IMG/VR virus record: IMGVR_UViG_3300027749_000355
Location: 1-31,216 of that record
Strand: one strand, 5' to 3'
Length of the DNA stretch: 31,216 nucleotides
Source of the DNA: a virus
Positions within the stretch are counted from its first letter, which is position 1, and each line of letters starts with the position of its first letter. The notes under the pieces were generated by a model. That model worked only from the letters and a program-made list of their open reading frames with translations, was not told where the DNA came from and did not search any database. Below are positions 1 to 20,300 of this stretch, piece after piece. A program made the position numbers and the translations under genes.

Positions 1-777
1 TAATCTTGCTACAGGACTACCAACAGTATAACCTACATCAGCGAAATTAACTAAATTAGTAAATCCCGCACTATTAGATTTTACAAAATCAGCGGAAGCA
101 AATCCACCCAATCTATCAGAATTAGTGGCGGTGCCCCAAAATCTTGTACCATCGGTAGTTTGTCCTGGTTGTGAATCGTTATTTGTAGATGCAAGTGTTA
201 TGCCTCTATGTAGTTTAGTAAATCCCGAAGCAGTTAATCCAGTTTCAATACCACCGTCTATTGGGTTGACGTCTACATTACTGACTACAAATAACGTAGT
301 GTTACCTACTAATGCTTCAACAATCGGAGATGTGCTACCATTTAATGCTCGCACAGTTCTAGATCTAACTTGTGTAGTCGAATATCCTGCGGCAACTTGA
401 GGTCCAACTAGGGTATAATCAGTACCGTTCCATGCATTAAGTTGATTATTAACAGTATCAAACCAGAAATCACCAAGTGTTAGCCCAGTCGGGCGGGTCG
501 CTCCAGTTTCTGCTCCACCAGTTGTACGGAATTTATTGCCGTCGAAGAATTTTAATTTGCTATTTGCACTATCAAACCAAACTTGGCCTGAAAGTGGTTT
601 TGGTGGTTGTGTAGTATTAGCGAAGTTTTCTAGCAAAGCTACAAAATTTTCATTTTGTACTTCACCGTATCCTGCGTAATTCTTACCGATTAACTTAATA
701 TCAAGGGTACTATCAATAGTGCCATCAGCTACTACTGTAATTTGTGTCCCGCTATATCTATTTATGGTGTATGACAT
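1..777 (-). CDS. Tail-fibre protein with shared N-terminal domain (C-terminus cut by window edge)
   Basis: This gene has no in-window stop; 259 codons are visible and it runs off the left edge. The ATG at 777-775 is supported by AAGGAA (787-792) nine bases upstream and by alignment with the N-termini of the next two fibre genes (both begin M[ST]Y). Residues about 28-82 carry the family pattern: LIGKNY, then LLENFA at 48-53, then GQVWFD at 64-69 and FFDG at 77-80. A second short unit, GDFWFD at 102-107, is followed by LVGPQ at 123-127. Near residues 215-232 it has WGTATNSDRLGG, a motif I associate with cyanophage-type fibre shafts. From the family and position it is probably a virion fibre or adhesin whose N-terminus docks to the tail and whose missing C-terminus would bind the host. 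It has its own late-type promoter at 802-809, so it may start a further transcription unit leftward. Confidence 0.85.
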   Translation of the reverse strand, partial: MSYTINRYSGTQITVVADGTIDSTLDIKLIGKNYAGYGEVQNENFVALLENFANTTQPPKPLSGQVWFDSANSKLKFFDGNKFRTTGGAETGATRPTGLTLGDFWFDTVNNQLNAWNGTDYTLVGPQVAAGYSTTQVRSRTVRALNGSTSPIVEALVGNTTLFVVSNVDVNPIDGGIETGLTASGFTKLHRGITLASTNNDSQPGQTTDGTRFWGTATNSDRLGGFASADFVKSNSAGFTNLVNFADVGYTVGSPVARL

Positions 778-801
778 CTGGCTCAGTTCCTTATTCTTAT
801 A

Positions 802-809
802 TATTTATG
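802..809 (-). promoter_or_regulatory. T4-type late promoter octamer (CATAAATA)
   Basis: Read on the minus strand the 58-nt gap between the fibre genes contains CATAAATA, ending 24 nt before the ATG at 777. T4 late promoters use TATAAATA, and published cyanophage late promoters are described as NATAAATA, recognised by the phage sigma-like factor gp55 with gp33 and the clamp. This is one of the three longest intergenic gaps in the window, and all three contain this octamer. Confidence 0.6.
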
Positions 810-835
810 CTGTTATATCTTAAATTTCTAGTAGG

Positions 836-2503
836 TTACAGGTCATTCTGATAGACCCAGACGCCGGTTTGCATTATAAACTTCCTAATTGCTGTTCCTG
901 CGCCGTCTGTACACACTGCCCTACAGATAGAATCGTTCGACCATTCGGTATTTGGGAACAATTTAGCTAGGTATGTTGTTGCAATTTGAGCGTTAGATAG
1001 TCCGGTAGTTGTTAAACTTATAGCTACAGACCGTGTGTCTACATATTTTTTAGTAGCGGCATCTTGCGCAGAGGCAGGATCAGCTAAGTTACTTATTTTA
1101 GAACTACTTACGTTAACAACACCTGCACCTTTAGGATCTAGGACTATATTCCCATCCGCAAATGCTGGTGTGCTATTTGCTAATGTTACATTTCCGCTTA
1201 GATCAGCAGTTATTGATAGATTAGTTATGTTTAAAGATGTTAGCGTACCAACACTAGTTAAACTACTAGTAAGTATAGTAGGCCCAAGAATACCTGCTTC
1301 TAATATGGTCGTACCGTTAATCTTATAACCCTTGCTTGCTACTAGATTTACGTGTTCTGAACTATTCCAGTATGCTCCACCATTTACCCATGTAAACGTT
1401 TTATCTGTTGTACCTTTAAGGGTAAAGCCACCGCCATTGGCAGTTGAATCAGTTGGACTAGCGACACTACCTAATTCAATATTTTTATCATCAATACTAA
1501 TAGTTGTTGAATTAATAGTTGTTGTAACGCCGTTAACTGTTAAATTACCTTCGATTATAACACTACCTGGAGTTGCAACTGTTCCTACATGTAGTGTTGC
1601 AGTTGGTGCTGAATTAAAAAGTCCGATATAATTATTAGTTGCGTCAACAAATAGTGCTGTTTGAGATGTTGATCCGTTTCTAGTGGTAATTTTAAAATTT
1701 TGACCAGATGTGTTTGACTTAATATTAAATAAAATTGCTGATGCATTTATCTCAGTATTTCCACTTTCACCTAATATTAACGGAGTGGCATTATTGATAG
1801 TAAGTGTTCCGGCTGTGGCCGAATCGTCAGTAGTTGATATAAAATTTTCTGCTGTTTTACTAGATCCATCTGCGGCCAATAATGTGTCAGCTTGTGAAAC
1901 TGGTGATCTTAATTTGACTCCGCTAAATGTACTTGCATTAAATCCAACATATATTGTACCAGTATATTGAGATATTGCAGTGCTTGGAGTAAATTCAGTA
2001 TTACTCCAAATACCTAATAGTGTTTGACCAACGAACAGACTTGCAATAGTATGAGTGAGTTGGTCAGTGCCAATAACACTGTCTACAACAAATCCTGATA
2101 GACCTTGGGCCGCTGTATAAACAGGGCCTGCTAGTTTAGTCGATGTACCATCGTTAAATCGTAGTTGTCCGTTATTACTATCAATCCAAATATCGCCTGC
2201 ATTAATTCCGCTAGGGGAAGAAGCAGACACGATAGTGCCGCCGCTAACTTTAAAATTAACACCATCATATACTTTTAATCTATTTTGTGTGGTATCAAAC
2301 CAAAGCTGACCAACAGTTGGGGATCTTGGTTGGACTGAATTAGCAAAATTTTCCAACAAGTATACAAAGTTTTGATTAAGAGCAGTGCCGTAAGCACTTG
2401 CACTTTTAGCTACTAAGGTAAGACTTGAGTGAACTTGATCGGTCGTACCGTCGACTAATTCTGTTAAGATTGTTCCGTTAGATTTGGTTATCGTATAGCT
2501 CAT
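836..2503 (-). CDS. Tail-fibre protein, second paralogue
   Basis: This 555-aa protein belongs to the same N-terminal family as its neighbours: LLENFA at 49-54, GQLWFD at 65-70, VYDG at 78-81, a second unit GDIWID at 103-108, then AGPV at 125-128. The middle is a Ser/Thr/Asn-rich beta-type shaft. Residues 320-388 contain LTVNGVTTTINST, NIELGS, GGGFTLKGTTDKT and TWVNGGAYWNSSE, a block seen often in cyanophage-type fibres. Residues 468-489 (ISNLADPASAQDAATKKYVD) match the common junction motif before a terminal fibre domain; the last 65 residues would be the tip. Its ATG overlaps the upstream TGA (ATGA, 2500-2503) and the Shine-Dalgarno signal is weak, so translation is probably coupled. It is inferred to be a trimeric fibre or short tail fibre; the receptor is unknown. 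Confidence 0.85.
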   Translation of the reverse strand: MSYTITKSNGTILTELVDGTTDQVHSSLTLVAKSASAYGTALNQNFVYLLENFANSVQPRSPTVGQLWFDTTQNRLKVYDGVNFKVSGGTIVSASSPSGINAGDIWIDSNNGQLRFNDGTSTKLAGPVYTAAQGLSGFVVDSVIGTDQLTHTIASLFVGQTLLGIWSNTEFTPSTAISQYTGTIYVGFNASTFSGVKLRSPVSQADTLLAADGSSKTAENFISTTDDSATAGTLTINNATPLILGESGNTEINASAILFNIKSNTSGQNFKITTRNGSTSQTALFVDATNNYIGLFNSAPTATLHVGTVATPGSVIIEGNLTVNGVTTTINSTTISIDDKNIELGSVASPTDSTANGGGFTLKGTTDKTFTWVNGGAYWNSSEHVNLVASKGYKINGTTILEAGILGPTILTSSLTSVGTLTSLNITNLSITADLSGNVTLANSTPAFADGNIVLDPKGAGVVNVSSSKISNLADPASAQDAATKKYVDTRSVAISLTTTGLSNAQIATTYLAKLFPNTEWSNDSICRAVCTDGAGTAIRKFIMQTGVWVYQNDL

Positions 2504-4644
2504 TGTAAGTTACCAGTAAAAATAATATAATTAATAGTCAAGTACGGATTCATAATATTTACCGCCTGGCCTAGTTGGGTTGAATCGGCCACGCTACCAG
2601 TTTTATCTATACCGCTAGCACCAGTTACTGCAACTTGTGGGCTGATAGTAGTTTGATAACCTGTACCAGGAACAGTATAGTAGTGTTTGTGATCTGGCAG
2701 ATTTTTAACTAATAATGTAACTGTGTCTTTGCCTGTGCCGGTGCCGATATTATCAGCAGTAACGTCAGTAACTCTGTCAGCAGGGGCAGTGATTGTTTGT
2801 ACGTTCTGAGCTACATTTAATCTGCTTGGTACACTTATTCCGTTGTTCATGCTGTCTTTGCCTAGTGCAAATCTACCTCTTAGGTCAGGCAATCTAAATG
2901 TGCCGTAGCCTTGCAACGGTTCAAGTGCTATATCTCTTATGTATACATCTCCAATGACATCATATAATAGTTTGTATGTTGTTTTAGAAACTTCTGCTCC
3001 GTCACATAAAACATACCCAACTGGCGGGGTAATTCCAGCAAATGGTAGGATTGCACCGATTGGCATTACTGGTAAATTCTGTTGTAATGATTTTTTAGTT
3101 ACCTTTAATAAACCAATATCTTTTCGCTGGAATAAAAAGTAATCGCTGTCCCGGAGTATCGTGGCATCTGTTTGTGCAGAAATTGCAGTTTCATTTAATG
3201 TCGTTGTGAGAATTAACGAACCATTAACTGTTTGTCCGTCAAACGCTTGAGCGTTACTATCCAGCTGGCCTTGAAGCTTAAACGTTGTAGGGCTGGCTAA
3301 TCTTCCGGCAGACCCAGTTACACTTCCATCTAATATACCTGAAAAAGATCCTGTAAATCCTCCGACAAACGCCTGTGCATATATATTTCTAAATCGGTGA
3401 TTCGTATCACCGATATCATACTGTAGTGTAGTAGTTGGAATTATTGCTGAAGATCCGTTTGCGGTAGTAATATAAAGTTTGCCAGTTAAATTAATATCGT
3501 TAGCAAAAGTAGATTTTTTTGTTACTGACAAGCCGCCTAGTGTTTGAATACTTGCACCACCGGGATCGCCCGGACCTGTGCTGAGATCACCGACATTTGA
3601 TGTTCCGTTTACAATCAATCTACCTAGTTCAGGTTTAGTAGCATCGTCTTTGATAATAATTGTGCCGGCAACGTCTAAAGTTGCTAGGGGATCTGCATTG
3701 TTAGTTCCAATACCTATTCTAGTTCTAGCATCGATACGCATTACTGTTTTAGTTATTGAATTATATTTCAACTTAAAATCAATTGCATCTCCGTTGTTTT
3801 TAGAATAAAATATTGTAGAAGTACCGTCAACACCTATGTTAAAACTTAGATCACTACCTATACTAAGTCCAGCATTTGCTCTAATATTAAGTGACGATGT
3901 ACTTGTACTCGACACATCACCTCTTAGAAAGTTACTAGCCAGTACGCTAACACCATTGACTGCTAATGCTTCGGCTCTTTCTGAGGTTCCCCAAATTTTA
4001 CTAGGAGACGTTTCGCTGTTACTGTCAGTTAATGATAAATTAAAGCCTTGTCGAATGAATGGAAACCCAGAAACAATTGATTTAGGCGTAAATGTATCTT
4101 TACTAATAATAGCTACTCTATAATTATTAGTATCAGTTATGCTACTGGAAGCACCATAAAAACTTATCACACTATGAGTAACATTATTAGTGTCAACTAT
4201 AGATTCTACTATGGGGCCAGTTTGTTTTCCTGCACTATATTGAGGTCCTACTAGTAACCAGTTGTTTCCTGAATATAGATATAGTTGACTATTATTTGTA
4301 TCAACCCACAAGTCACCTTTAGAACTACTAATCACTTCAGGAGCTACTCCTGATTTCTTTAAAGAACCTGCGGCGGACCAAGCGGTGCCGTCATATACAT
4401 TTAAAAAATTAAGAGTATTATCATACCACAACTGACCTTGAACTGGGTTAGCAGGCGGGTTATCTGATGGGCTTGCAAAATTTTCTAGTAAGTGTAAAAG
4501 ATTTTCAGCAAGGACTGGAGCAAACCCTTTATAATTTTTGCCGATAAGAGTCACTGAAGTTTGATTATTCAATGTTTGATCAGCGACCACTATCGCAGGT
4601 TTGCTAGGATTAGTAATTTCAGTAAATCTAACTTGATAAGTCAT
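2500..4644 (-). CDS. Tail-fibre protein with C-terminal phage tail-collar domain
   Basis: This 714-aa protein is the third member of the shared-N-terminus family: LIGKNY at 33-38, LLENFA at 52-57, GQLWYD at 70-75, VYDG at 83-86, GDLWVD at 110-115, LVGPQ at 131-135. The shaft holds RIGIGTNNADPLATLDVAG (309-327) and DIGDTNHRFRNIYA (410-423), both recurrent in marine myovirus fibres. Residues 527-599 are a tail-collar domain: MPIGAILPFAG, GYVLCDGAE, FRLPDLRGRFALGKD. It is followed by NLPDHKHYY (648-656) and the C-terminal NPYLTINYIIFTG (699-711), as in T4 gp12-like short fibres and other collar fibres. AGGAG at 4653-4657 lies eight bases before the ATG, and the upstream stop is three bases away. 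A receptor-binding or short-tail-fibre role is inferred from the collar architecture. Confidence 0.9.
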   Translation of the reverse strand: MTYQVRFTEITNPSKPAIVVADQTLNNQTSVTLIGKNYKGFAPVLAENLLHLLENFASPSDNPPANPVQGQLWYDNTLNFLNVYDGTAWSAAGSLKKSGVAPEVISSSKGDLWVDTNNSQLYLYSGNNWLLVGPQYSAGKQTGPIVESIVDTNNVTHSVISFYGASSSITDTNNYRVAIISKDTFTPKSIVSGFPFIRQGFNLSLTDSNSETSPSKIWGTSERAEALAVNGVSVLASNFLRGDVSSTSTSSLNIRANAGLSIGSDLSFNIGVDGTSTIFYSKNNGDAIDFKLKYNSITKTVMRIDARTRIGIGTNNADPLATLDVAGTIIIKDDATKPELGRLIVNGTSNVGDLSTGPGDPGGASIQTLGGLSVTKKSTFANDINLTGKLYITTANGSSAIIPTTTLQYDIGDTNHRFRNIYAQAFVGGFTGSFSGILDGSVTGSAGRLASPTTFKLQGQLDSNAQAFDGQTVNGSLILTTTLNETAISAQTDATILRDSDYFLFQRKDIGLLKVTKKSLQQNLPVMPIGAILPFAGITPPVGYVLCDGAEVSKTTYKLLYDVIGDVYIRDIALEPLQGYGTFRLPDLRGRFALGKDSMNNGISVPSRLNVAQNVQTITAPADRVTDVTADNIGTGTGKDTVTLLVKNLPDHKHYYTVPGTGYQTTISPQVAVTGASGIDKTGSVADSTQLGQAVNIMNPYLTINYIIFTGNLQ

Positions 4645-4647
4645 AGA

Positions 4648-5262
4648 TTATACTCCTGCTAAGCCAGTTAAACTTTGAATACGAACTGTATAATCAATTT
4701 GTATTAAACGATTTAATGATTTTTGTACAGGGTGGAATATAACATGAGTCAATAACAGGCCTGTGCCAGATGCATTATAGCTTTTTAACCCTAGTTCATC
4801 AAATACTAATCCGGTTGTTGTTGAGGTAGCATTGTCAAATGCTTGTTGACCTGCGGTATTTCCATCGCCGTAATCCAACAGACAAGTTACAAACAGATCT
4901 GTATAGTTTGTGCCAGTAACATGTCGAGCTTCTGTATAGTTACGTGTAGGATCGACATTATTACTACTGCGTTCATCTACAACTTTTTTAAATTGTTGAC
5001 TGTACAAACTTGCATTTGCACCCGAACTGTTTGGTGTTAGGTATGTGATAATACCTGTTGGATCTACTGAAGTTCCGCCACTACCAAATGCCATTTCGTA
5101 AACAAAGCCGTTACCACTATTAGATAGCGTGTTAGCTAATGCTATACTCATATTTTCATAGTGTATAGCATTACGTTTGTTGACATAAATTTCATTGGAA
5201 ATGGGATCGAAGATCTTTATATGACCTTCTATATGAACTCCCGTTAAGTCTTTGCTCTGCAT
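4648..5262 (-). CDS. Small tail structural protein (204 aa)
   Basis: This is a 204-aa soluble protein with no signal peptide or membrane segment. It opens with GVHIEGHIKIFDP (8-20). The C-terminal third has VFDELGLKSY (153-162) and LLLTHVIFHPVQKSLNR (169-185), ending in a beta-rich DYTVRIQSL segment. I recognise the HVIFHPVQKS-type ending from small structural proteins near fibre genes in T4-like marine phages, but I cannot assign a T4 gene number. It is the first gene after the promoter at 5284-5291 and is followed three bases later by the collar fibre, so it may be a fibre adaptor, a baseplate-fibre connector or a minor fibre. The ATG at 5262 is preceded by AGAG about 9 nt upstream. Confidence 0.75.
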   Translation of the reverse strand: MQSKDLTGVHIEGHIKIFDPISNEIYVNKRNAIHYENMSIALANTLSNSGNGFVYEMAFGSGGTSVDPTGIITYLTPNSSGANASLYSQQFKKVVDERSSNNVDPTRNYTEARHVTGTNYTDLFVTCLLDYGDGNTAGQQAFDNATSTTTGLVFDELGLKSYNASGTGLLLTHVIFHPVQKSLNRLIQIDYTVRIQSLTGLAGV

Positions 5263-5320: not shown

Positions 5321-6982
5321 TTAACCATATCTTCGTATTCTCAATCTCGGATACATTGCGCCGGTAGCGGGTCGGTCTTTGTATCTAGTCATTGGCGAAA
5401 CTGTTCCCGTTACTGGTCGCACAGCTAGGTAATACAAATATCTGTTATTTGAGTTATCACCTAGTGATGTGTAATCGCCAGCAAGGCCGCCGGTTGATCC
5501 AATTTGATTCTTTGTTGAGTTAGTAATCAAATGAGTCAGTGCTTCTGATTGACGCATATTAGGATATTGCTCTAATAAACATGCTAAGTATCCAGCTACC
5601 TGCGGGCCTGCCATACTAGTTCCCGATATGCTTCCTATTTTATACGCAGAATCTCTAGTGTCATTAGCAAGGACAATTCCATATTCTGTAGCGGCTGCTG
5701 AATCTCGAAAACTGGAAACAATATTACTTCCCGGAGCCCATATATCAACCCGCTTGCCATAGTTGCTAAAAGTACTTTTATATTCTGAAACAGTTGTGCC
5801 GGCTGACCCTACACAAATTACTTGAGCGGCTGACCCTGGAGAAGAGCCTCGAGTAGGAAAATATGTAAATCCACCAGCAACAAAAGAATTATTATAATCT
5901 GCAAGATCCGACGTAGCCATATTCCAGTAACTATTTCCAGCACTTGCTACTACAATAACTCCGTCTGCAATAGCATCTTGGATGTCAGCTTCAACCCCGG
6001 CACTTCTTGCGGGGGTTGCATATAGATACGTGCTGGCCGGAACTGGGATTCCGTTGTCTTGTAAAATCGTTCGCTTGGCTGCATCAGTGCCGGACAGTGC
6101 AGTAGTAGTACCTCTATAAGTTACACTAGTTATACCACTTAAAGCAATATTGTTATATGAGTATCCCCAGCTGTTGTTTGTCACTGTTGGGTTACGTTTC
6201 CCAGTTGCAGAATTAACTGGTTTAGAGTTGTGAAAAGCTCTAATATAATCAAATATGAATACAGACCAGTCAGCGGCGGAGCCGGGAGGGCCGTTGCCGC
6301 CTGCATAGTTAAACTCCATATTGTAAATATTTGCATCGCTTGCCCAGCCCTGAGTATTTCCGGCAGTAATGCCAGTAGTGTGTGTTCCGTGATTGCTTGA
6401 ACTAGCACTATAACTATATGTTCCTGTAGAAGCATATCCTAATGCGGCGCTATGCTGGAACCAATCATATTGCACAGCTCTAGATCCGCCAGTACCGTCT
6501 GGATTTACAGCAAACTCTGGATGATTAAAATTTATGTGTGCATCAACTATTACAGCATCTACATTTTTTCCAGAACTAGTAGTAGTAATTGTTTGTGTTG
6601 TTTGGGTAAAAGAACCATTAGTTCCCCATGTTGCTAAATTTGATCCTGCTGTACATCTGAGCAATCCCCAGTTCTTATCGTTGGCATCAATGGTTGAACT
6701 TTTTTCAAAATTGCTAGTTCGTATCCCATGAGGAACTGCTGATATGCCTTGCAGACTAGGCATTAATTCTACAGCAATAACTCTAGGATCGCTACGTAGC
6801 TGTTCAGCTTCTTCAGTAGTTAACAAGAAATGAGTATTTCTACTAATCTCCCTGCGTTGAGTTACCTCTACTGCTCTGTCAGGAATATAGAGATCACCGC
6901 CAGGAGTTTCTAAATCGTCAAGCAGAGACGTAGCATCGTCCATAGTATTTGCTGTAACAATATATTCTTGAGTATCAGACAT
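5321..6982 (-). CDS. Subtilisin-family (S8) serine protease with I9-like propeptide
   Basis: This 553-aa protein has a complete subtilase catalytic set. Asp147 lies in AVIVDAHINFNHPEF, His198 in SSNHGTHTTGITAG, the oxyanion Asn350 in VVASAGNS and nucleophile Ser456 in GSISGTSMAGPQVAGYLA. Residues 6-75 look like an inhibitor I9 propeptide: EYIVTANTMDDA at the start and LTTEEAEQLRSDPRVIAVE at 54-72, the usual edge before the mature enzyme. There is no signal peptide, so it should be made in the cytoplasm, consistent with a virion part released by lysis. The C-terminus (520-553) is short and rich in Arg/Tyr and resembles no fibre tip I know. It lies one base after a fibre gene and just before a late-type promoter; GGAAG precedes the ATG. 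It could cleave host surface proteins, or process the phage's own fibres or giant tail protein; the sequence does not decide between these. It is unrelated to the T4 prohead protease gp21. Confidence 0.92.
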   Translation of the reverse strand: MSDTQEYIVTANTMDDATSLLDDLETPGGDLYIPDRAVEVTQRREISRNTHFLLTTEEAEQLRSDPRVIAVELMPSLQGISAVPHGIRTSNFEKSSTIDANDKNWGLLRCTAGSNLATWGTNGSFTQTTQTITTTSSGKNVDAVIVDAHINFNHPEFAVNPDGTGGSRAVQYDWFQHSAALGYASTGTYSYSASSSNHGTHTTGITAGNTQGWASDANIYNMEFNYAGGNGPPGSAADWSVFIFDYIRAFHNSKPVNSATGKRNPTVTNNSWGYSYNNIALSGITSVTYRGTTTALSGTDAAKRTILQDNGIPVPASTYLYATPARSAGVEADIQDAIADGVIVVASAGNSYWNMATSDLADYNNSFVAGGFTYFPTRGSSPGSAAQVICVGSAGTTVSEYKSTFSNYGKRVDIWAPGSNIVSSFRDSAAATEYGIVLANDTRDSAYKIGSISGTSMAGPQVAGYLACLLEQYPNMRQSEALTHLITNSTKNQIGSTGGLAGDYTSLGDNSNNRYLYYLAVRPVTGTVSPMTRYKDRPATGAMYPRLRIRRYG

Positions 6983-6983
6983 A

Positions 6984-8300
6984 TTATGCTTCCAACTGTA
7001 GTACTGTTAATGTAGCAGTAATTGCCGCGGCAGCGCCGGAAAGATTTGTAATGTTTACTGGGATAGTTGTAGTAGGCGAACTTTCACTGTTAAACCCAAA
7101 TGCTCCTGGACTTATAAGAATTGTCTGCGCACTAGTTGTGATTACTTCAGCAATAACTCCGGCACTAGGTAACGGATCGATAGTAGATGCTCTCGATGCA
7201 TCAGCAGTTCTAGATGCGGCGTCTGAATATATTCGGACCCAGGCTGCTGCCGATGTTTGAATTTTTAATAATGCATAGGATTTAAATCCAGTAATATCTG
7301 CATTAGCATTGGCATTGTTAGCTATACTTGCAGTGGTAGCCGACACTGTTGTTCGAGATACTAGTCCAGCCACTGTTGCCCAACTTGCGTTAGTGCCGTC
7401 AGTAGTTAAATATTTTCCGCTATTACCAGTTTGTGTTGGTATCGTGCCGCTAGGTGTTCCCCAACTAAGTACTGTACCATTAGTAGTTAAATACTTGCCA
7501 CTGTTACCGGTTTGTGTTGGTGTAGCATCGACAGTAGCCCAACTAGTAGATGTTCCATTAGTTGTAAGAAATCTTCCACTGCTGCCTGATTGAGTTGGTA
7601 GGACTTTTGTTTCACCGAGACTTGTGATCCAGCTAGGATCTGCATAGCTGCCAACAGTAGTAACTCCGTTCGTTGCTATAATTGTGCCGGTTAACTTTGA
7701 TACTGCTAGACTTGTAATCCATGCAGGATCTGCATAGGTACCAGAGGTAACTACACCGTTTGTTGCCACTACTGTTCCAGATAATTTTGATCCTGCTAGA
7801 CTTGTAATCCAGCTAGGATCTGCATAGGTACTAGCACTCGATACTGCATTAGTAACTTTGCTAACAGCCAATGAAGTTAACCAGGCAGGGTCTGCTTGTA
7901 CTGAAGTTGTTAGCACAGCATTAGTAACTTTACTACCTGCTAGACTTGTGATCCAACTAGGATCTGCATAGCTTCCGTTAGTATAGACTCCGTTAGTTAC
8001 TGTGCTAGCATTACCGATAACCACATCTGACCAGCTAACAGATGTTCCGTTAGTTGATAAGAACTTTCCAGTTTGGCCAGATTGAGAAGGATACGCACTA
8101 GCTGACGGATTTGCCCAACTTAATGTGGATCCGTTAGTTGCTAAAAATAAACCACTATTTCCAGTTTGAGTAGGAATTTGAGAAGTACTGTTTGCATATA
8201 GTTCAGCAAAATTTGCATTTATTTTTATTGCACCTGACCGAAGAGTATCCCCAGTGCCGTCATTTGCAGTTGAACCTGCGTTTAAGAGTTGTTGCGCCAT
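6984..8300 (-). CDS. Repeat-built tail-fibre protein (438 aa)
   Basis: The N-terminus (1-36) reads QLLNAGSTANDGTGDTLR and KINANFAELYA, a start typical of phage fibre or tail-spike adaptors in marine myoviruses. Residues 43-307 consist of two short repeat families. Unit A (about 20 aa, type PTQTGNSGKYLTTNG plus SW) begins near 43, 71, 235, 261 and 288. Unit B (type YADPSWITSLAGSKVTNAV) begins near 111, 136, 159, 189 and 219. The C-terminal domain (314-438) contains WVRIYSDAASRTAD, GVIAEVITT, ILISPGAFGFN and NITNLSG, a compact beta domain I associate with fibre C-termini. AAGGA at 8308-8312 is seven bases upstream of the ATG. The gene sits four bases after the giant tail gene and one base before the protease. 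It is probably an elongated fibre; tip ligand unknown. Confidence 0.85.
   Translation of the reverse strand: MAQQLLNAGSTANDGTGDTLRSGAIKINANFAELYANSTSQIPTQTGNSGLFLATNGSTLSWANPSASAYPSQSGQTGKFLSTNGTSVSWSDVVIGNASTVTNGVYTNGSYADPSWITSLAGSKVTNAVLTTSVQADPAWLTSLAVSKVTNAVSSASTYADPSWITSLAGSKLSGTVVATNGVVTSGTYADPAWITSLAVSKLTGTIIATNGVTTVGSYADPSWITSLGETKVLPTQSGSSGRFLTTNGTSTSWATVDATPTQTGNSGKYLTTNGTVLSWGTPSGTIPTQTGNSGKYLTTDGTNASWATVAGLVSRTTVSATTASIANNANANADITGFKSYALLKIQTSAAAWVRIYSDAASRTADASRASTIDPLPSAGVIAEVITTSAQTILISPGAFGFNSESSPTTTIPVNITNLSGAAAAITATLTVLQLEA
7380..8174 (-). repeat. Two families of five tandem coding repeats within the 438-aa fibre
   Basis: Two A units (near residues 43 and 71) are followed by five B units (111-233) and then three A units (235-307). 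A units share a TG.SG.[FY]L.T.GT..SW pattern; B units share ADP[SA]W[IL]TSL..[ST]K. The DNA copies are similar but not identical, so the array could shorten or lengthen by recombination. Spacing between B units (23-30 residues) is not uniform. Confidence 0.85.
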
Positions 8301-8304
8301 CTTG

Positions 8305-11300
8305 TTATCCTTGTTTATCGAATGTTATACTACTCGTATCGAGTGTTCCGTTATTACTATCAAAACTTGTTGCACTAAGAACTGTAGGAACACTTGTTCT
8401 TAACGGAGAATAGCTGATTCCAGGAGTTGCTTTTAAGAAATTACTAATCTTACTATCATTATTTAAGCCAATATCCCAATTAATTCCAGTGCGTTTTATA
8501 ACTGTTACACGAGTTCCCACACGCAATGGTGTAAGCAATGTGATCTTATTAGTGATACCGTCTACTGTGAAATCTGCAGAAAGTATTATATCACCTTCTG
8601 GACTATTAGGAGCGATATTACTATTATGCATTGTATATGTACGTTTACGTAATCGAATATTTCCAATAAAAAACATGTATACTAAATTAGCAGAAATCTT
8701 TCTAGCTATAATAGTTCCATCTTGTTGTATTGTATTAACTACGTCTCCCCATGTTGAGCCGCTTGTATGATTTACTGTCACTTTGTAAGTATAGCTAGCA
8801 TATGAAAATATAGTTCCAACAAAATAATTAGTATTTGGTAGCCATTCTGATATATCGTAGCCGCCAACAAATACTTCAATTTCGTTTACGTTAGCAGGAG
8901 TATAGGACAACGGAATTGTTGTTGTGCCGTCAGATACTATTTGCTCAGTTAAAGAAGTGTCAACATAAGGTATAGTTTCGCTTGGTCCTATATCCTGCAC
9001 TATTGAACTGCTTACATGTTTGTTAGGGATTCCAGTGCCTAACGTGCCTCGGCGAATATTACTCAATGTATTACCGGTCAACACAAAATATTCAATTCGT
9101 TCACCTTTGATTTCAATTACGCCTGGTTTATTTTGTGAAAGATTAGGTTTATCAAAATTACTAGCATCAGCAACTACAATCTGTAAATCATTGAAATTTA
9201 AATCTTGTACTAGTGTTGTTTTCTTATTGACACTTAGTCTCTTATAATGTACCCTATTAAGCATATCTTTAAATTGCATATAAGCAACACCGGCAGTGAT
9301 AATGTTACTACTAAAAGTAATTAACATAAATTTATCATTTAATTGCGGAGATACTGCTAGCGTAATACTATCTTTACTATCATTGACTTTGTAATCAACA
9401 GTTGGAGATAGTAATATATTATTTTTTGTTACCCATACATATCCGTCATCTATTACTGGTCTTGATAACACTAGTCGTCCACCGGCAATATCTTTGTAAT
9501 AATAGTACTCTGGAGTATCTGCTACAACTGACTGTGAGAAAGATACGCTAACACTTGTTCTATTAATATCCAATATATCATGCTGATATGAACTAATAAT
9601 TTCTATAAGATTAGAAGATGTGTATGCTTGAGCAAAAACAATACTACCAGCTACAGGAGTTATTGTAGTTTCGTGGGCTATTGAATAAGCGCCTGGATCT
9701 AATGCATACTGTAATGTAATCGATGTTACAGTACTAGCAGTACAGGTATACGTTCCGTTATATAATGGATTAGCATTTCCAGCTATGATATAATTTACAC
9801 CAGTTAACGGTGGAGTATCTTGTTGGGCAATCCTAAATGTTGCTTGATATGGGCCGGTTCCAGTTTTTCCGGTTGATAATGTTATAGTGTTTTGTGTTGG
9901 CGGATAGTAAATATATCCTGCGTCAGCTGAAACTATTATAACTAACTGTTTTCCTTTGTTTAAATTATAAACACGTTTATTAATCTTTACAGTAATACCG
10001 TTAAGATCAACAGAATAGTCAGCACCTACTTTTAGTAATTTACTATCTGCTAGCACTGTTATATCTGATGAATTCAAAGATCCTGGGGTAAATGTACTTG
10101 CACCGATCGAGTAGTTTAATTTATTGCTTCCAATCGTATAATATGTGTTACTTGGTCCGGGTAGAATTGTTTGATCAACTCTAACTATAATACTAGCTTC
10201 ATTCGGTAGTGAGTTTCCAATAGGGTAAGTTAATGGAAAAGTAGTCGCTGAAACTGTAGGTATAATTTTTTCAGTAGCAGTTACCGCAAATGTCTGTTGA
10301 GTGCCGCTAACAATAATATAATTAATTAAATCTCCGATAGCGGGCGCCGTGCTAAATCTAATTCCTACTCTATTTGGGCTTTCGTAGGTAGTGTCTGTTT
10401 TAAATAATTGAGCAATTACTGCTTTTCCGTTTAGATATATTAATGATGTAATCTCAGCTAGCCACGGCGCTTTAGTAATAAATTCAACCGTAGTTCCGTT
10501 GCCGGTTGTGTTATCAAGATCTAAAATATTTTTACCGCTAAACCCAATACTAAAAATACTGACTGTTTGCCCGGCTGTTGGAACTACAACAAACTTTATA
10601 GTTTTAGTCTTATAGTCAACTGTGTAATCTGTAGCGTATGTCTTAATGGTATTACCAATTTTAACAATAACAGCTCTTGGACTATTAGGAGTTTGTGATA
10701 TAACAAAACTCGATTGTGTTCCATTAGAAATGTAATTGTCAATTTTTACCGAAGCAGATCCTGAATTTGGTTGATCATATACTTTAATAGCTACTGAATC
10801 AACTACTTGTCCTGGAACTACTTCTTCCGGTGCTGGACTTGAAGTCGGTGTTACAAATCCGTCACCGTCAAGTATAATATCATCGGCTGCTAATCCAGTT
10901 GCTGTTGCAAATGCCCCAGTTATAGTTTTAGAAGTGTCGCCGCCGCTTATCGCTGAATCGTAGTCAACTTGCGGAGCAACAGATCCATCACTTGTGCTCT
11001 TTCTCCAAATAAACTCATCTTTATTATTAACTACAAAAGTGTTTGGAATCACAAACGTACTAGTCAATCCGGTACCTGTTGGTGATAGCATGACAGCCGC
11101 ATTGTTAGTTTGATTAACTGTTCCGAAAAACGGATCATCAATTCTGATCGATGTTGCTGGACCTTCGATTGACAATACAGTACCGGATGCTAACGGTGTA
11201 GCTAATGTGATGGTACCGGTTGCATAAACTGTTAAGTCGATTGGCGTTACTAATACTCGAGAAAATGTTATAGCTGAGTTATTAGGGATATTAGCTATTA

Positions 11301-14300
11301 AAATTTGATCTAGTATCAGTGTAGTACTGTTGACAATTGTTTTAATTTTAGCATTAGAATTAAATGCGTTAACTGCTGTGCTAGTTACTATATCACCAAG
11401 TCGTAATGAGGAGGTGTTTGAAACTAGTATTGTACTAGACCCGGCAGAATTGTTAACAAAATCTAAAGTCGGGCCAATGGCTGATATCGGCGCTTTGTTG
11501 ATTCTTAAGGTGGTTGAATTAACTATCTCTTTTACTATGTGTAATGAATTAAAACCTGCTCCTATGATACCCATTCCAACAACAATACCAGTTGTATCTA
11601 ATACCTTTAGACTAGTTCCGCTATTACCCGAGCCAGTAGTCTTAGTAACTACGCCAGTTGAGGTAACTGAAAAAGAAGCAGTAACAATTGGTCGAGTGTT
11701 AGTAATATTATACTTGTATTGGGTTTGTGTTCCGTTAGACGTGTAGGTATTTACAATATTTTTTATATAGTAAACATTGAGCACTGCTGTTGTTGCAGGA
11801 ACATATGGCAAAGTAAATGAATGAGTATTTGCCGGAACTACGGTTATGTAATCATCAAATCCATCATCAAATTCATCCCATGAATCAGTTCCGTAACCGT
11901 TTGAATCCCATCCGGTACTAAGGTCAAAGTTTAAACCATCAACAATGACTCCACCATAATCAATACCGGTCATTAGCTGAGATAAGTCTTTACCTAAATC
12001 TCCAGATCGCGGGTTATAGTAATACTGAATACGGTCGGCAGCATTTAATAATGACCAGTCTTTCAAGTACGTTATTGAAATAACTGAGCCGACTGCCGGC
12101 GCTGTAGTAAATTCTAACAGGCCACTATAACTAGTATATCCCTTGGTGGTAGATTGTATGATCTTTAATTTGTACAAATCTCGTAATACTAATGCTCCAT
12201 TAATAGTAACACTTGATGTTCCTATTCGTATGTCCGGAGCCCATGTTAGTGTAAATTGATATAGACCACTTGCTCCGGTTTTTATTTCTGTTTGCTGTAA
12301 GGTAGTTATAAAATAGGACTGGGTAATTCGATCGAATTTTATTTTTATTAAATTAGATCGTACAACATTATTACCGATTATTGATTCTGAACTAGTTCCA
12401 ATTATAGCAACTGCTCTTGCAGAAATTCCATCGGCAGCTAGGCCGCCGGCAAATGTAATCGTCGGAGCTGACAAATATCTCTTACCATTTGTTAATAGTA
12501 TAATTCTGCTAACTGACCCGTTGGATACCAGTGCGGTTGCTGTTGCGCCTGTTCCTGCACCATTAGAAATAATCACTTTAGGTTCCGAAATATAGCCAGA
12601 GCCTGCACTTACTAACTCGATAGATGTTACAGTGTAGCCGATATTATCTAGCCAGTGTTTCCACGGATATGTTGTTACAATAGGGTCTGCAACGTTAATA
12701 GTATTATTACTAATCGAAGTTAGAATCGATGAGATGATTTTATTTTCATATGCTGACGGCAAATCAAAATCAGTAATAGATGTTTGGCTAGTGTCAATTT
12801 TATCATAAGAACTGATATATTCTCGAATGTTAGTTCTATAAGGTTTAACCTCATTAACATAATCTTCAAAGTTACTTAAATTATCGTTGCGATACGTTAC
12901 TGGTTGTTTTAATTCGCCAACATTATGTTTTGCTTTGATAAAACTAGTTTTAAAAACCCAATCAATATACAACTGTTCTGTGAATATATAACGTATGCTG
13001 ACAAAAAACAAATCAAGATATGCACTAGATAAGTCATCAATAAAAATATTATCTCGTAATGCGGTTAGTATGATTCTTAACTCGTTTGACGCAACTGTAT
13101 CAAACATTGTTCCGTCATAAGTTGAAGCATCATATCCAACTGGTGTTCCTGAGAAACTATATAAATCAGAATTAAGTTGAATAGTTCCTTTCTCTATACC
13201 GACTATCTTATATGACTGTGTCCAATCAATACTGACTGAGTTTGCATATTTTACCAAAAGCTGCCAGCCAGATGTTCCACTGTATCTCACAATAACTAAT
13301 TTTCCGATAGCTACAGAATCTGATATTTGAGATAATCCCGAGTAGGTATTTACAGAATAATCTGCGGCAGTAAAAGAGCTATAACCAGATGCATACCAGT
13401 CGACCTTAGACCAATAATCAGCGGTATTATATGTCTTAGTTCTAATTCTTGACCAAAGCAAACCGACCGGATCGTATGAATAAATGCTCCAGTTATTTGA
13501 TGCATTTTCGTCTTGATATACTAACACTGAATAATCTCTAACTAATACTAGTGTGCTATTATCATATCCCGATCCAGCATTTAAAATAGTTGCACCTATG
13601 ATCTTTCCAAGCCCGTCGGTACTAATTATAGTTCTAATTTTTGCATCGGCACCTGATCCAAATACATCAATATACGGTGCAGAAACATAGCCTTGTCCCG
13701 AATATGTTATAACAATACCTGTTATCTTTCCGTCAATTATCGTCGGTGATAGTATTGGACGTTTAAATCCTCCAACATTGGCATAGACTAATTCTGCGGC
13801 TGTATCAGCCGTGGTGTCATATTTTCCGGAAATTAAACTTGGATAATCCTCCGAAGAGCTTAATGCTGATATATCTCTGTTTTCAACAATTTGATTTTTT
13901 AGTAAAACTGCATTTGCTTTTTCTACTACCTGTTTAAGAGCTTCAATACGATTTATAAACATTCCCTGACGTGGGCGATTTTCGATACCATAACGTAATT
14001 TAATCGGAAGGTTAATATCCGGTACTACTCTATCGTAGTCATCTTTACCGCATAGACTATCAAACCATTTCTTTTCAATATTTTTAGGAATAGTTGTGCT
14101 AGTAGACGAATTAATTAATTTCCACTGGCTATGTATATTTTGATCAGTTTTATCTATTGTCCAGTATTCTACCGACAACACAGTATCTGTATCAGTTAAT
14201 AATGATTTAGTATTAACTAAGCTAAAAGAATTTAGACCTGTTATTGCAATGTAGGTATATCCTTGTCCTCTAGGATTTGCAATTAAGTTAGATACCTCAG

Positions 14301-17300
14301 CGGCGGAAATGTGTCTGCCTACTACATTAGGAACAATTTTTTTATTTTTTACCCAATAACAATATGTATTTTTAAATGTTTGACTTATTGTATCATATTT
14401 CTTTTTTACAGAATATGCAGTATTTCCATATAATGATACTCCGCTAATTCCTTGAGCTAGGCCAACTTCGGTATCAGTTCTCTTATCCCATTCTGCTGGA
14501 AGCAATGTAGTTGATACCCATTCATATATATCAATACTTGCTCCGTGTGCTAGAGTGTTCCATGTGCTGTTTCGGTAGGATATTGATGAATCATAACTTT
14601 CTATGAATTTAGCAGTACGTAAATCCCACCATAAGGCACCGACTTGGTCAGTGGTCCATTGGGCATTATCATCAACAGTAACATCTGTTCCTACTGAATA
14701 TATTGCCGGGTCATAAAAAGTAGAGTACTTTATTTCTTCGGCAGCAATGCCTGGAATTTTTCCTTGTAATGGATCAATAACATCAAGTTTTTTTAGTAAC
14801 TGGTCTGTAGTTTTATTATATAGAAATACTTGTTTGATCTTATAAGGATCTGGTTTGTCAATTTCGATATCTTTAATTGTCCAAGAATATGTATTTGTAT
14901 TTTTAATATAGTTATAAACTTTACCTGAACGCAACCCTTGATCAATTGTAAATGGTGCTCCGACAAATACACTATTATTACCAACTGCAATTGCTGATCC
15001 GTATCCAGAAGCAGTTCGGGTATCAGCAGATAATGTTTCACTGAATACCCAATTTGATGAGTATCTATCGTATATGTCTACACGCCCAGTATCTGTATTA
15101 GTTGTTACAAAATTTGTAGATTTCTTATCAAAGGTAGTTGCATTTCCTGAGATAGTCGGATGTAATACCTGATCGTAATTAAATGTTAATTCTACATCAG
15201 TATCTCCGTGTGTACTGTAAACAACTAATGTTTTAGAATCATTCATGAACGACATTTCGCTACCAAATCTTCCATTTATCTGAGGTTGATAATTTACTAA
15301 ATTTTGATATAGGCTGTATGTAGATCCGTTAGATTTATATACACTAACTCTACCTTGTTGAATAATACTAGTACCATCTGTTAAATCGTCTGATATTGCT
15401 AGATATTCGCCGCTGTCAGACAGCGACACCGCTTGTCCAAAATTATAATCAATTCCTACAAGTGTTTGCGTAGGGATTGTACTAAACGTTCCGGCAGACT
15501 TTTTGTAGATATAAACTTTACCTGCAACTGAGCCTGCTGAAGCAGATATACTTAATACTGTAGTATCAGTACTTAACGAAATTGCATTTCCAAAGTTACT
15601 TTGATTTGTTTCACCGGCATAAATTTTAGATAAGTCGTGTGCCCAACTTATAGTTACAAATTTTATAATGCCGCTAGGCTCTGAATCAGGACTGCCACTT
15701 AACAATACTGTGTTCATCGGTGTCACTTGTACTACTGTACGAGTTAGCGATGTTGTAGTATCAGAAAAAGTAACATTTAAAATATTTGATAGATCTTGCT
15801 CAGCTTGTACTACTACATACCCTCTATATGTTGAGGTTAGATCGTAATAGATTGAATATACTTGTGTAGGGAATGTTACATTTGTTCCGCTTACATACAT
15901 ACCAACTTTAACTGCTGAAATGCTATCGCCAATAGCAAAAAATAGTTTAGTTAAAGTATATGCAACAGTTTGGCCAGATTTAAAACCTGTGCCAATAACG
16001 GACATATTAGACTGCACTCCAGCAGTTGAAGTAACTGCTAATATGCCAAATTCACTACCAACTGAGTTATACATTGTAGAAACACGTTCTATCGTAGTAT
16101 AGTTTAGCTTGTAAACACGACCTCTATTAGTATCGTATCCTAGAGCAGATACATATAGCTCGTTATCTCCGAATACTAAACTTGAACCAAATCGTTCATT
16201 AGTTTGAAATAGTGGACTTAGTATAGTATCAACTGGATCATATAATCCGTTCGGATTTCTTTTATATAAACTAACTGCGCCGTGCAATGTTCTATTAGTA
16301 TTTGTTCCGAATGCGTCTGTTTTAAGATACGGTAATAGTTCCCATACTATATTATTACTTGTCGGGTTAATCCCAACAACGCCAGACTGTAGTGTTTGAT
16401 AGTATACATTACCTATTGAAACAATATCGTCAACTGCATAAGTTACAGAATTAGACCAGACTCCGACTAGCTTAGTAGATGCATAGCTGACTAATGGGGA
16501 ACCGATGGCAAACCATGCGCCGTCTGGTGAGAAGGATGCGGCGTCGCCGACTCGTGCGGTTGGATTAGGGTCAAACCCAGAGACTTCTTTAGCAATAAAC
16601 GGTTTAGATAATACTTGCTGTTGCACCCATGCTAGGCCAGAACGTTGGTATATAATTGTTTCTGCCAGGCCATTCAATATTGCTACAACATTCCCAGATT
16701 TACTGATAGCTAATGTTTTTCCGTATTTTAATTCAGTTATAGGAAGAGAATTTTTAATATCGACTTCCGAATACACTGGATTGTAGATCCACGATGCCCA
16801 TTTTCCAGTTCCGCTATCATCAGTCCATAACAATTCTCCTGGAGACAGTGATCTAGATGCCGCAGTATCGATCGTGTCGATAGATGATGTTCTACGGCTG
16901 ATCAATGCATACACAATTAAATCGCTAGCAGGTGTCCATGTAGGAAGTGCGCTAGTAGGTGGCGTTAGCGGCCAGACTGGAATAGTAGCTGAGACTGTAA
17001 ATGCATTTAATTCAATCGACGTAATTTTATAAAATCCGTTTAATCCTGTAACTCCAGATAATCCAATATATGTTCCTACGGATAGTGTTATTAAATCTTC
17101 ACACTTAATAGTAAGAGTTTTATTAGGAATACTATACACAACACCTGCATTTAATTCACCTTCTAATACACGCAAATTAAGATCTGTATATTCGTAAACA
17201 TTCCACGAAGTGTCTTCAAATGTACACCAAATGTAATCACCGTTATTAAACAAGTTAATATCAGCTGTTAGTACTTCATCAATTGATTTAAAAGTGAATG

Positions 17301-20300
17301 CAATATCGCTTTCTCTTACATAACCCGCACTTCGTAAGTAAGGATTATAATTTTGTAATTTAGGCCAAGGTGCAGAAACATAGCCTAATGGTTTTATATA
17401 AACACTAGCTGGTGCTTGTCTAATAATAAAATCATAATAGTTAGTCGAAGCAATCTGATTTACTAGTTCAAATCCTTGCGGGTTATTTTTAAATAACGAC
17501 TCATCTAAAATAAATTCAATATTTTCAAATCCAGAACTAGCGCCATATTGTCCTGATCTTACAGCCCACTCTTCGTAAAAGTTTAAACTTTCTTTTCCGT
17601 CGGCGCTTAATACATCAAACAATTTATTAAGTACATTTTGTGTACCTTTTTCACGAATCATTCCTTGATAAAATTTAAATTCGCTAACGTCATCCTGTAT
17701 AATATTTTCAAGATACTGTCGCTTTTGATAACCAATAAGATGTTGAGCTACTTTTTGTTGGTTAATATCAAAGTTATCACTATCTAAATTATAGAAATCA
17801 GTAAATTGATTTGCTTTGTAATTCCAATTTGGTAGTAATTGTGCTTTTGGTTGTTTGTCAAGTTTTACCCAGTCAGATATATTAAACGCTTCAGTACCTG
17901 ATAGGAAATGAATAGCACTATAATAAAAATCTTTATACTTGACAATATCCCCCAATGCATAATCTTTCCATGCGGCCCAAGAATCAACGATAGCCTGATC
18001 AAATATAAATCCTGGAATATCAAAGCCGCCATACCAGTTCTCACTCACATATCCTGATACTTTAATTCGATCTTGTTTGTAACCGCTCGGTGGGTTATAA
18101 ATTGTATCATTAAACATGGTAGTATTTTTAAGAAGTACTACTTGTTCTTTTTGTACTAGATAAAATGTTGCACAATAAATCCCATCATTAGATTGAGGAG
18201 AATAGGTAACATAATTTTCTTTTCTATATGACTGAAGGAAATCAGAATTTAATGGTGTGCCATCTACTTTAAATATTTCATAGCCGTTAAATGCATTTCT
18301 AATATCATCTATTACACATAATTTTGTATTAAAAGTTAATTTTCCTGCAGACGGACTTAGACTAATAACGCTACTGCCAACTGTGCTTAATCCTTCTAGC
18401 TTGATAAAATCTTCTTGATCAAATATTGCAGAACCCGGAGCAGTTATAATAGCTTTGTAATAATCTCCGTTGTAGCGCAAGATAGAATCAAATACGATCG
18501 GAGTACCCGGTGTCCACTCTGCCCATTTATCTTGTCCTGATGACCAGTTTTGAGTTGTCCAGAATAAGAATTCTTTACCGCTAGTTTCCCAGTTGGCAAT
18601 TGCATCTAGGTTAGGATTATAGTCGTCAAAAACAAATCCTTGATCTTTTAACCATTCACCGTATCCGATAATTACATCGTATACTTCTTGTATAGTATCA
18701 AATTTAGTTCCGTATGGGATTCTAATCGATTCACTTCTGTCCCATAACTTACGTGATATAACAGTTCTTCCACCAATGATAGGAATTGATTTTAATGCTT
18801 GGAAGTAAGATGCTTTAAATGTTCCAGTATCAGTATGAGTGACCTGTACTCTGTAATAAACATTATTGTACTTAACAATAGTGCCGGCAGCATATTGCTG
18901 ATTAGCAGTCCACTGTGAAAATCCTTCTGAGATGCCACCTACGTTGAGAGGATTGCCAGATTGTACATGATTGTAATAATTAAAATATGGCTGAGTTAGG
19001 CTATAACCTTTTAATTCATAACCGTCAGATAATTTTGTTACTAAAATTCCACTGTATGTGATTTTCTTAAGGGGGCTTGAGCTGTTTAAGACAATATCAT
19101 AATCTTCCTGTGGAACAAATATGCTGCCTGAACTCAGCGGGGTTTTGCTATCTAGTAATAAATTGAATTTTTCTTTACTGCTGAAAGCTCCAATACGATA
19201 GCTAAGTTTTGCTGACAAGTTTAATAAATCATATTTGTAAGAAGTGTAAGATTTTAAACTATCACTTAAGATATAATTTACAATATAGTTGATAATTCCT
19301 GCTGTTTGCACCCGAGCAGAACTTGTAGAAATATTAGGTAGGACTATATCTGACGGTCGTATACGTCGATTTGTTTCTTTATATACAAGTTGTCCTGTTA
19401 AATCTCTTACAATTCTTGATCGATCTAATACTAATCCAAAAGTTTTAGATGGGGTTAACAACATAGAAGTTATTAGTATGCTAAACGGATAGTGACTACT
19501 TCTTCTCCAGGCTGCTTCAACCGGACTGTTATCACCGAATACAAAATCATTATTTGTTGATGGGGTAATTATACCTGATACCACATCAGACTGAAGTGGG
19601 CTAATTAAAACGCCTGATTCGTCTACTGGTAGGTGAGCTAACAACCATGGCTTAATATATTGAGATAGTACAGTTGGAGGCACACCAGGCTGCTTAACTA
19701 CACCTTTTGAGATATCTGTCCATAGTATGGTATTGTTACAAGTGTATGGTGCTGGACCATATGTATCTTGCCACCAGTTAGGCTCAATTGTAAAACCTAG
19801 CATCTCCCAAGGACACAAATGTGGACGATCAGTGTTATACATCCAAGTGTAAATACCTCTCCAGTATGCAGGTGCATCCTTTCCGTCTGGAGTAGCGTGT
19901 CCTTTGTAATTGTATGTAAATGAATTTGTTCTATCGTAACTTAGAGGTTTAGAAAAATCTCTATTAATTGAAGATGTCCATTTATAAAAACTCGGGGCAA
20001 GAGTTTGATCAAATTCTGTTCTACTGTAAATTTGATCGTGTCCGTAGCTCGGAATAACATTAAAAATGTCATATATTTTAGGATCGTATTCTACCTTAAT
20101 GTTATTAAAGATTCTTTTTTCTAATTCTAAAATAATATTATCTCGATAGTCTCCAAATGCCAACGTTAGACTTCCGTCATGTCCTTGAATCATCATTCTA
20201 GGAGTAATCAATGTAGTGTCAAGATAAATTTTAGGTTCGTATTTTGGCCATATACCTAGTTTAGTCGGAGTCTCTGGCACAAAACTTCCGTCAGTATTAT

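Follow-up and report, generated by a model that had tools for sequence, protein, structure and literature searches.

A subtilase gene directly behind a fibre or pin gene

The DNA considered here is the viral record IMGVR_UViG_3300027749_000355 of IMG/VR, analysed over its positions 1 to 31,216 (31,216 nucleotides; hereafter the window), and the gene in question encodes a subtilase, a protease of family S8, on its minus strand (Table 1). One intact open reading frame (ORF) of 553 codons, with its ATG at 6980-6982, specifies a protein that matches Pfam Peptidase_S8 at 86.8 bits (E 2.1e-24; cut-off 21.8 bits) and PHROG_9158 at 331 bits across nearly its whole length. The preceding gene encodes a fibre or pin protein, and the junction between the two consists of a stop codon, one base and the ATG. 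Two elements of this gene pair are central below: the C-terminal domain of the upstream protein, termed the socket, and a short C-terminal motif of the subtilase, termed the tag. The enzyme or other protein encoded behind a socket is termed the head.

An original prediction, made from the window sequence, had described a complete subtilisin at 5321-6982 with an Asp147/His198/Ser456 triad and the oxyanion residue Asn350, and both statements hold. All four residues stand in the correct motifs, and none of them varies among the 67 relatives aligned. Across a wider set of 147 unique sequences, the exceptions to the triad are truncated entries, two heads of family S53 and an Asp-to-Glu change in phage S-CAM1 and locus L149; the Ser motif reads GSS rather than the usual GTS in two S8 heads (L146, L205), with the Ser present in both. 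It is well supported that the gene is a complete S8-family subtilase with intact catalytic residues, from which proteolysis is predicted. Relatives occur in 52 phage records and at least 580 IMG/VR stretches (among 599 pattern matches listed; not deduplicated), and chance occurrence is therefore excluded.

The AlphaFold2 model of the subtilase has a mean predicted local distance difference test score (pLDDT) of 89.4. Its catalytic domain aligns with 8c4z_B at Z 36.0 (276 aligned residues, 2.2 Å), and the best Foldseek match is to proteinase K-type enzymes (E 1.4e-20). Ahead of this domain, residues 4-73 follow a beta-alpha-beta-beta-alpha-beta order. Pfam Inhibitor_I9 scores 13.7 bits on the window protein, short of the 21.2-bit cut-off, and appears at E<=1 in 11 of 29 relatives, with a best E of 0.0057; a profile of the prodomain run against the PDB returns lysozymes in its top rows, at E 0.16 and above, taken as chance. 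No signal peptide is apparent by eye in the window protein, for which no signal-peptide prediction was run.

Table 1. Features of the subtilase locus in the window, with members of a further head family from other loci
Feature	Position	Strand	Basis
Subtilase (S8) head gene, 553 aa	5321..6982	-	ORF list, Pfam, PHROG, fold comparison
Prodomain, residues 1-78, I9-like predicted fold	6749..6982	-	AlphaFold2, Pfam
Residues 79-84, low-confidence link (pLDDT <50), likely self-cleavage zone (putative)	6731..6748	-	AlphaFold2
Catalytic domain, residues 86-523, proteinase K / aqualysin-like	5414..6727	-	AlphaFold2, fold comparison
Asp147	6542..6544	-	motif position, alignment
His198	6389..6391	-	motif position, alignment
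Asn350, oxyanion residue	5933..5935	-	motif position, alignment
Ser456, nucleophile	5615..5617	-	motif position, alignment
C-terminal tag, residues 522-553, RPVTG....RPATGAMYPR	5324..5419	-	alignment, AlphaFold2, profile
Fibre/pin protein with socket, 438 aa, stop codon 1 nt ahead of subtilase ATG	6984..8300	-	ORF list, sequence
Socket (tip) domain, last 118 aa of upstream protein	6987..7340	-	profile, alignment, model
T4 gp9/10-like N-terminal domain of socket protein	8016..8294	-	T4_gp9_10_N, 30 bits (cut-off 25)
Giant 4978-aa virion protein, upstream of module	8305..23241	-	ORF list; large gene at same place in S-H38, S-CREM1
204-aa protein downstream (phrog_11259), 58 nt past subtilase, not shown as module member	4648..5262	-	PHROG
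PCPYY family members (positions within loci)	L134 6317-8614; L136 6311-8137; L041 8572-10875; L137 1632-3962; L054 708-2678

A conserved socket coupled to the next gene

An upstream ORF is visible at 122 of 127 subtilase loci, and the gap between it and the subtilase lies between -4 and +3 nucleotides in 119 of these 122, being exactly +1 nucleotide in 89; the same +1 spacing precedes 124 of 192 heads of the S8/S53 class. The upstream proteins vary in length and in the type of their N-terminus, and the last ~118 residues are conserved in most of them, with a mean column identity of 63% across an alignment of 55. A profile of this socket gives 362 matches in 358 sequences searched; 358 of the matches lie in closed ORFs, and in 356 of these the socket reaches to within two residues of the C-terminal end (not deduplicated). 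Where both ends are visible (n=164; some starts mis-set), socket-bearing proteins have a median length of 380 residues and a maximum of 1598.

The predicted structure of the socket is beta-rich and of high confidence (pLDDT 96.4). Foldseek finds no match to the fold in the PDB at E<=1e-3, a VIA-align comparison reaches a best Z of 5.9, below the readable range, and the socket profile has no match among PDB sequences. BFVD holds 13 matches at E<=1e-3, five of them named Synechococcus-phage proteins and one a Nodularia-phage protein; the others are unnamed or more distant, for example in Agrobacterium phage Atu_ph07 and Bacillus phage G.

A C-terminal tag that accompanies the socket

In the model of the window subtilase, tag residues 527-534 and 536-553 have pLDDT values below 50, yet the segment is conserved: R522 is invariant, and R537, G541, P545 and R546 are nearly so. 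The motif RPxTGxx[YFW]PR is common to heads of S8, S53 and hydrolase type, reading LRPVTGNVSP...RPATGMVWPR in an S53 head and LRPTGGQVFPR in a hydrolase. Its core, [YFW]PR, follows the catalytic Ser region in all 167 complete S8 heads that adjoin a socket. In the first set examined it was found in 113 of 118 socket-linked subtilases; four of the five exceptions run into the end of their locus and the fifth stops 43 bases short of it. Among nine subtilase loci where no socket is visible, eight lack [YFW]PR (P-SSM2, S-SCSM1 twice, S-T4, Sf-CH8, S-TIM54 and two contigs that resemble each other; six distinct sequences), and the ninth is 5'-truncated.

The strict form of the tag, R..G..[YFW]PR, occurs in 12 of 7386 other ORFs, of which five are S8 heads and seven belong to loci with a socket, at a position downstream of it. 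A tag profile run at E<=10 over 7307 ORFs gives 213 matches, 174 of which fall in ORFs resembling the S8 references; among the remaining 39, the seven that score best (E<=0.075) are genuine tags and the lower rows mix tags with noise, the best non-S8 rows being an S53 head, a hydrolase and small ORFs beside genes of the PCPYY family described below. In that family the tag is carried on a separate protein: the next gene is tagged at 22 of 29 loci (76-120 residues, once 221), five loci are cut by the contig end, and in the remaining two the next ORF is untagged and a tagged ORF lies further on.

Socket and tag also vary together. In a set of 85 non-redundant S8 pairs, the divergence of the socket has a correlation of 0.277 with that of the tag and of 0.131 with that of the catalytic domain, and the partial rank correlation of socket and tag is 0.246, above all 500 permutations (sd 0.058, maximum 0.168). 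The socket thus tracks the tag over and above the intervening catalytic domain, which points, modestly, to socket and tag working together.

Exchangeable heads behind one type of socket

The IMG/VR survey was made with an alignment of ten sockets, six of them subtilase-linked, led by the S-BM3 socket (not subtilase-linked). At the 81 places found, the next gene is S8-like in 57, belongs to a family with the motif PCPYYLPDDF (the PCPYY family) in 21, is of another kind in two and is lost at a contig edge in one. Reduced to 66 unique places, the heads are S8 (43), PCPYY (18), S53 (2) and alpha/beta-hydrolase (1), with two unresolved. When three socket searches and the earlier loci are pooled, 229 unique places hold 189 S8 heads, 29 PCPYY, four S53, one hydrolase and six others; of these six, two are a second socket gene followed by an S8 gene, another two are truncated or unresolved, and no head is recognisable at the last two.

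The S53 heads are L142, L167, L265 and L332, of which L167 and L265 are assigned by motif. L142 and L167 have no prodomain and show the motifs SGDSG and GTSASAP. Pfam suggested subtilases for such heads, an assignment rejected because L142 (E 8.8e-31) and L332 (E 3.8e-23) match kumamolisin in the PDB over the catalytic domain; the S53-like heads are therefore assigned to S53, and with L142 and L167 in that family the two odd triad rows of the 147-sequence set are explained. No relative of L142 was found in the phage collection at E<=1e-5. The hydrolase head, L200, matches Pfam BD-FAE at 61.9 bits. The PCPYY proteins, roughly 600-780 residues long and mostly followed by the small tagged protein, reach no Pfam cut-off and have no PDB sequence match. 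Sockets beside different heads can be similar, one linked to an S53 head sharing 75% identity with an S8-linked one and one linked to a PCPYY head 72%, which favours exchange of heads.

Relatives in other phages

By tblastn, subtilase relatives are present in 52 phage records, 48 of them from cyanophages or marine viruses (by name, 40 Synechococcus, four Prochlorococcus, three Marine-virus and one Cyanophage); the other four, from Agrobacterium and Acinetobacter phages, are partial matches. Several are annotated as 'subtilisin-like serine protease', and an S8 peptidase, T4-GC518, is mentioned for P-HM1 and P-HM2 (PMC3037559). The statement that a virion subtilase lies outside the T4 core is consistent with these records, in which the gene is, however, already annotated in cyanophages. 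In 11 annotated phages, relatives belong to fibre or baseplate clusters, and in two more their neighbours are virion or fibre genes. In S-RSM4, S-WAM2, S-H9-1 and P-SSM2 the subtilase lies in a fibre cluster with no giant gene within the stretch shown, the largest gene nearby being 4.6 kb ('baseplate wedge subunit', S-H9-1). In phage S-SCSM1, the GenBank record labels as virion protein the S8 protein SSCSM1_228, its upstream neighbour 227, the socket protein 231 and the PCPYY head 232.

Some relatives depart from the common pattern. The subtilases of S-CAM1 (L047 7080-9332) and L149 (1484-3292), with Glu for the catalytic Asp, still adjoin a socket, and these two are possibly altered or inactive proteases. 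A second subtilase clade (L043, L044, L048 and L049, from S-SCSM1, P-SSM2, S-T4 and Sf-CH8) has mostly an NPFANN-type tail, and its upstream partner ends in a TPEPGxTGxxTY-like domain; judged from these sequences, clade and partner are perhaps a parallel socket/tag pair. For S-T4 HOU04_gp070 (L048 7920-9836), the annotated start (locus 8070) seems ~50 codons late, and an upstream in-frame ATG would restore both the start of the prodomain and the 1-nt coupling to the preceding gene. The 2140-residue virion protein of S-TIM54 (L046 6033-12452) contains, by eye, an alpha/beta-hydrolase-like stretch between the subtilase prodomain and the S8 domain.

Proposed mechanism and alternatives

The interpretation that we consider likely is that socket protein and subtilase form a fibre-tip module of two genes in which the subtilase serves as the enzyme head, its tag docking in the socket and its active site acting on a host surface protein. 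The catalytic residues and the module architecture are well supported; docking of the tag is suggested by comparative data, the structure models being of single chains. The pin or fibre would be fixed to the baseplate through its N-terminus, an attachment proposed from its resemblance to the gp9/10 family, and its last ~118 residues would form a beta-rich socket at the free end. The head encoded by the next gene would dock there by its flexible tag, and the stop-start spacing would keep fibre and head products coupled. The head itself would be a proteinase K-type zymogen whose prodomain aids folding and is later removed by a cut near residues 79-86 that opens the active site; subtilase zymogens free themselves by cutting after the prodomain. 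Mounted on the virion, as is predicted for the window's phage, the protease would cut a host surface protein during adsorption. Since the same socket and tag serve S53, alpha/beta-hydrolase and PCPYY heads, a change of tool without a change of fibre would be possible, and because the mount takes two protease families, a hydrolase and the PCPYY protein, the likeliest common job is contacting or degrading host surface material. The original prediction had offered cleavage of host surface proteins as one of two functions; it is the better of the two, its action on surface proteins being presumed. Extended to aquatic T4-like phages in general, a standard fibre-tip plug-and-socket, with a portable tag on diverse enzymes, a small adaptor for PCPYY proteins and cassette swapping, seems somewhat favoured.

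Several observations weigh against this interpretation. The strict tag is present in 143 of 170 complete S8/S53-class heads and the other 27 keep the [YFW]PR core alone, so that a clean all-or-none strict tag is rejected; sockets at L259 and L133 have no recognisable head, and the proportions of head types are biased, most loci having been fetched with protease or socket queries. Glu replaces the catalytic Asp in the S-CAM1 and L149 relatives, by which the proposal that all relatives are active enzymes is rejected, and the catalytic-residue check covers the heads collected before two later socket searches. A prodomain motif was recognised in most but not all complete S8 heads (143 of 167), and prodomain plus catalytic domain superpose poorly on solved pro-enzymes (root-mean-square deviation ~20 Å by Foldseek, e.g. 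3whi). Because of this superposition and the sub-threshold Pfam score, I9-like is a reasonable label with no formal match: the secondary-structure order fits the intact I9-like propeptide originally predicted. The virion labels of S-SCSM1 are indirect, with 48 coding sequences labelled 'virion protein' versus 45 proteins detected by mass spectrometry (PMC9602691); the labels resemble detection calls because a translational repressor and NMNAT are included and several structural genes are left out. Furthermore, the small tagged protein SSCSM1_233 has no virion label, SSCSM1_228 falls in the second clade, which differs in its tail (NPFANN) and in the C-terminal domain of the upstream partner, and the paper on S-CREM1 lists no more than 14 virion proteins, with no peptidase or protease mentioned in its main text. 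The link to the host surface is drawn by analogy.

An assembly or maturation protease that processes fibre, pin or giant baseplate proteins and is then bound or lost would account for the position of the subtilase directly behind giant and pin genes, an order seen in the window, in S-H38 and in S-CREM1, and the predicted prodomain would give it timed activation. This explanation is unlikely. It fits less well because the slot can also hold an alpha/beta-hydrolase or a PCPYY protein, poor substitutes for a maturation protease, and because the four fibre clusters named above have no giant gene in the stretch shown. In addition, most T4-like cyanophage records are unmatched (52 versus 448 records that are named Synechococcus or Cyanophage and have a T4-type capsid), although a distant S8 protein may escape detection. 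Thus, of the virion-bound or assembly protease originally put forward, the virion role is supported by the fibre/pin coupling, the fibre clusters and the SSCSM1_228 label, and the assembly role, including maturation of the fibres or the giant protein, is the less likely part. It is highly improbable that the enzyme acts within the cell in host takeover. Such a role would suit the lack of an apparent signal peptide and the metabolic genes that lie a few kb from relatives in some phages, but the direct neighbours in annotated contexts belong to the same cluster and code for fibre, virion or unnamed proteins, and SSCSM1_228 is labelled a virion protein.

Two further explanations concern the module rather than the enzyme. 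Stop-start coupling also occurs in chaperone pairs, and the tight spacing of the present genes would suit a socket that serves the protease as chaperone, inhibitor or substrate instead of mounting it, with the tag as a folding or secretion element. Against this quite unlikely arrangement stand the occurrence of one socket type with unrelated heads, the place of the socket as the terminal domain of long fibre proteins and the tag on a separate protein in PCPYY loci. Alternatively, socket and tag might be tied only by gene order and shared ancestry, the two proteins acting separately, as could be argued from the facts that the modules are common to related phages and that all the data are comparative. 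Linkage of this kind would be expected to make the nearer catalytic domain correlate better with the socket, yet the farther tag does, and the tag recurs on non-homologous heads; this explanation is decidedly unlikely.

If the fibre-tip mount exists as proposed, an isolated protease annotation becomes a testable virion mechanism. Socket and tag signatures would then predict which phage protein mounts at the fibre tip and which enzyme it carries, and many virion genes of aquatic T4-like phages could be named. The mount would explain how T4-like phages change their host-surface tool, show how those of aquatic habitats may pass host protein coats, and provide a peptide-socket pair of natural origin with which enzymes could be attached to fibres.

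Neighbouring genes in the window

The subtilase had been placed between two fibre-type genes. Upstream this is correct, the neighbour being a pin of gp9/10 type; downstream, the 204-residue phrog_11259 protein intervenes before the collar-domain fibre gene. The large gene at the position of the giant gene is named baseplate wedge initiator or subunit in S-H38 and S-CREM1. The giant protein of the window (8305-23241, minus strand) has CBM_5_12 carbohydrate-binding matches (45.6 bits) in two stretches, the best at residues 1443-1471. Three consecutive fibre-like proteins, also on the minus strand (1-777, 836-2503 and 2500-4644), have alike N-termini (e.g. LLENFANS..P..GQLWFD), and these sequences at 1-4644 look like one attachment module with different distal parts. 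PF00124 (photosystem II), sought as a sign that the window is from a cyanophage, was found in only one virus contig (G005) among 14 long relatives (13 virus contigs and one metagenome-assembled genome, partial records).

Comparison with known systems

The closest known genes are the cyanophage 'subtilisin-like serine protease' genes of S-H38, S-CREM1, S-RSM4 and S-WAM2 (PHROG_9158), which belong to the same family as the window subtilase. The S-H38 and S-CREM1 proteins share 56-57% identity with it over 98-99%, and their genes follow the same order of giant baseplate gene, pin gene and subtilase. These cyanophage genes are recorded singly, with no socket/tag module or exchange of heads in their annotations or in the literature passages that concern them; T4-GC518 of P-HM1 and P-HM2 is likened to the family by description. 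No description of the module was found in the literature searched, most subscription journals and supplements lying outside its coverage. The window subtilase is a known gene that looks like part of an apparently undescribed, exchangeable fibre-tip mount.

Among cellular enzymes, proteinase K and aqualysin-type subtilases have the fold and the catalytic residues in common with the window protein (Z 34-36). They differ in that the phage protein carries the C-terminal tag and insertions, has no apparent signal peptide and is 553 residues long in total, versus ~280 for the solved chains. The S53 heads compare in the same way with kumamolisin and sedolisin: the catalytic domains of L142 and L332 match, whereas the phage heads have no long prodomain and carry the phage tag. 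On the side of the mount, the N-terminus of the window socket protein matches the T4 gp9/gp10 baseplate pins (T4_gp9_10_N), and the difference lies in its C-terminal socket, for which the PDB searches above gave no match. A head gene directly after a fibre gene is also the arrangement of gp37 and gp38 in phages with long tail fibres of the T2/PP01/S16 type; there gp38 serves as an adhesin on gp37 and is no protease, and it is likened to the window head by this gene order.
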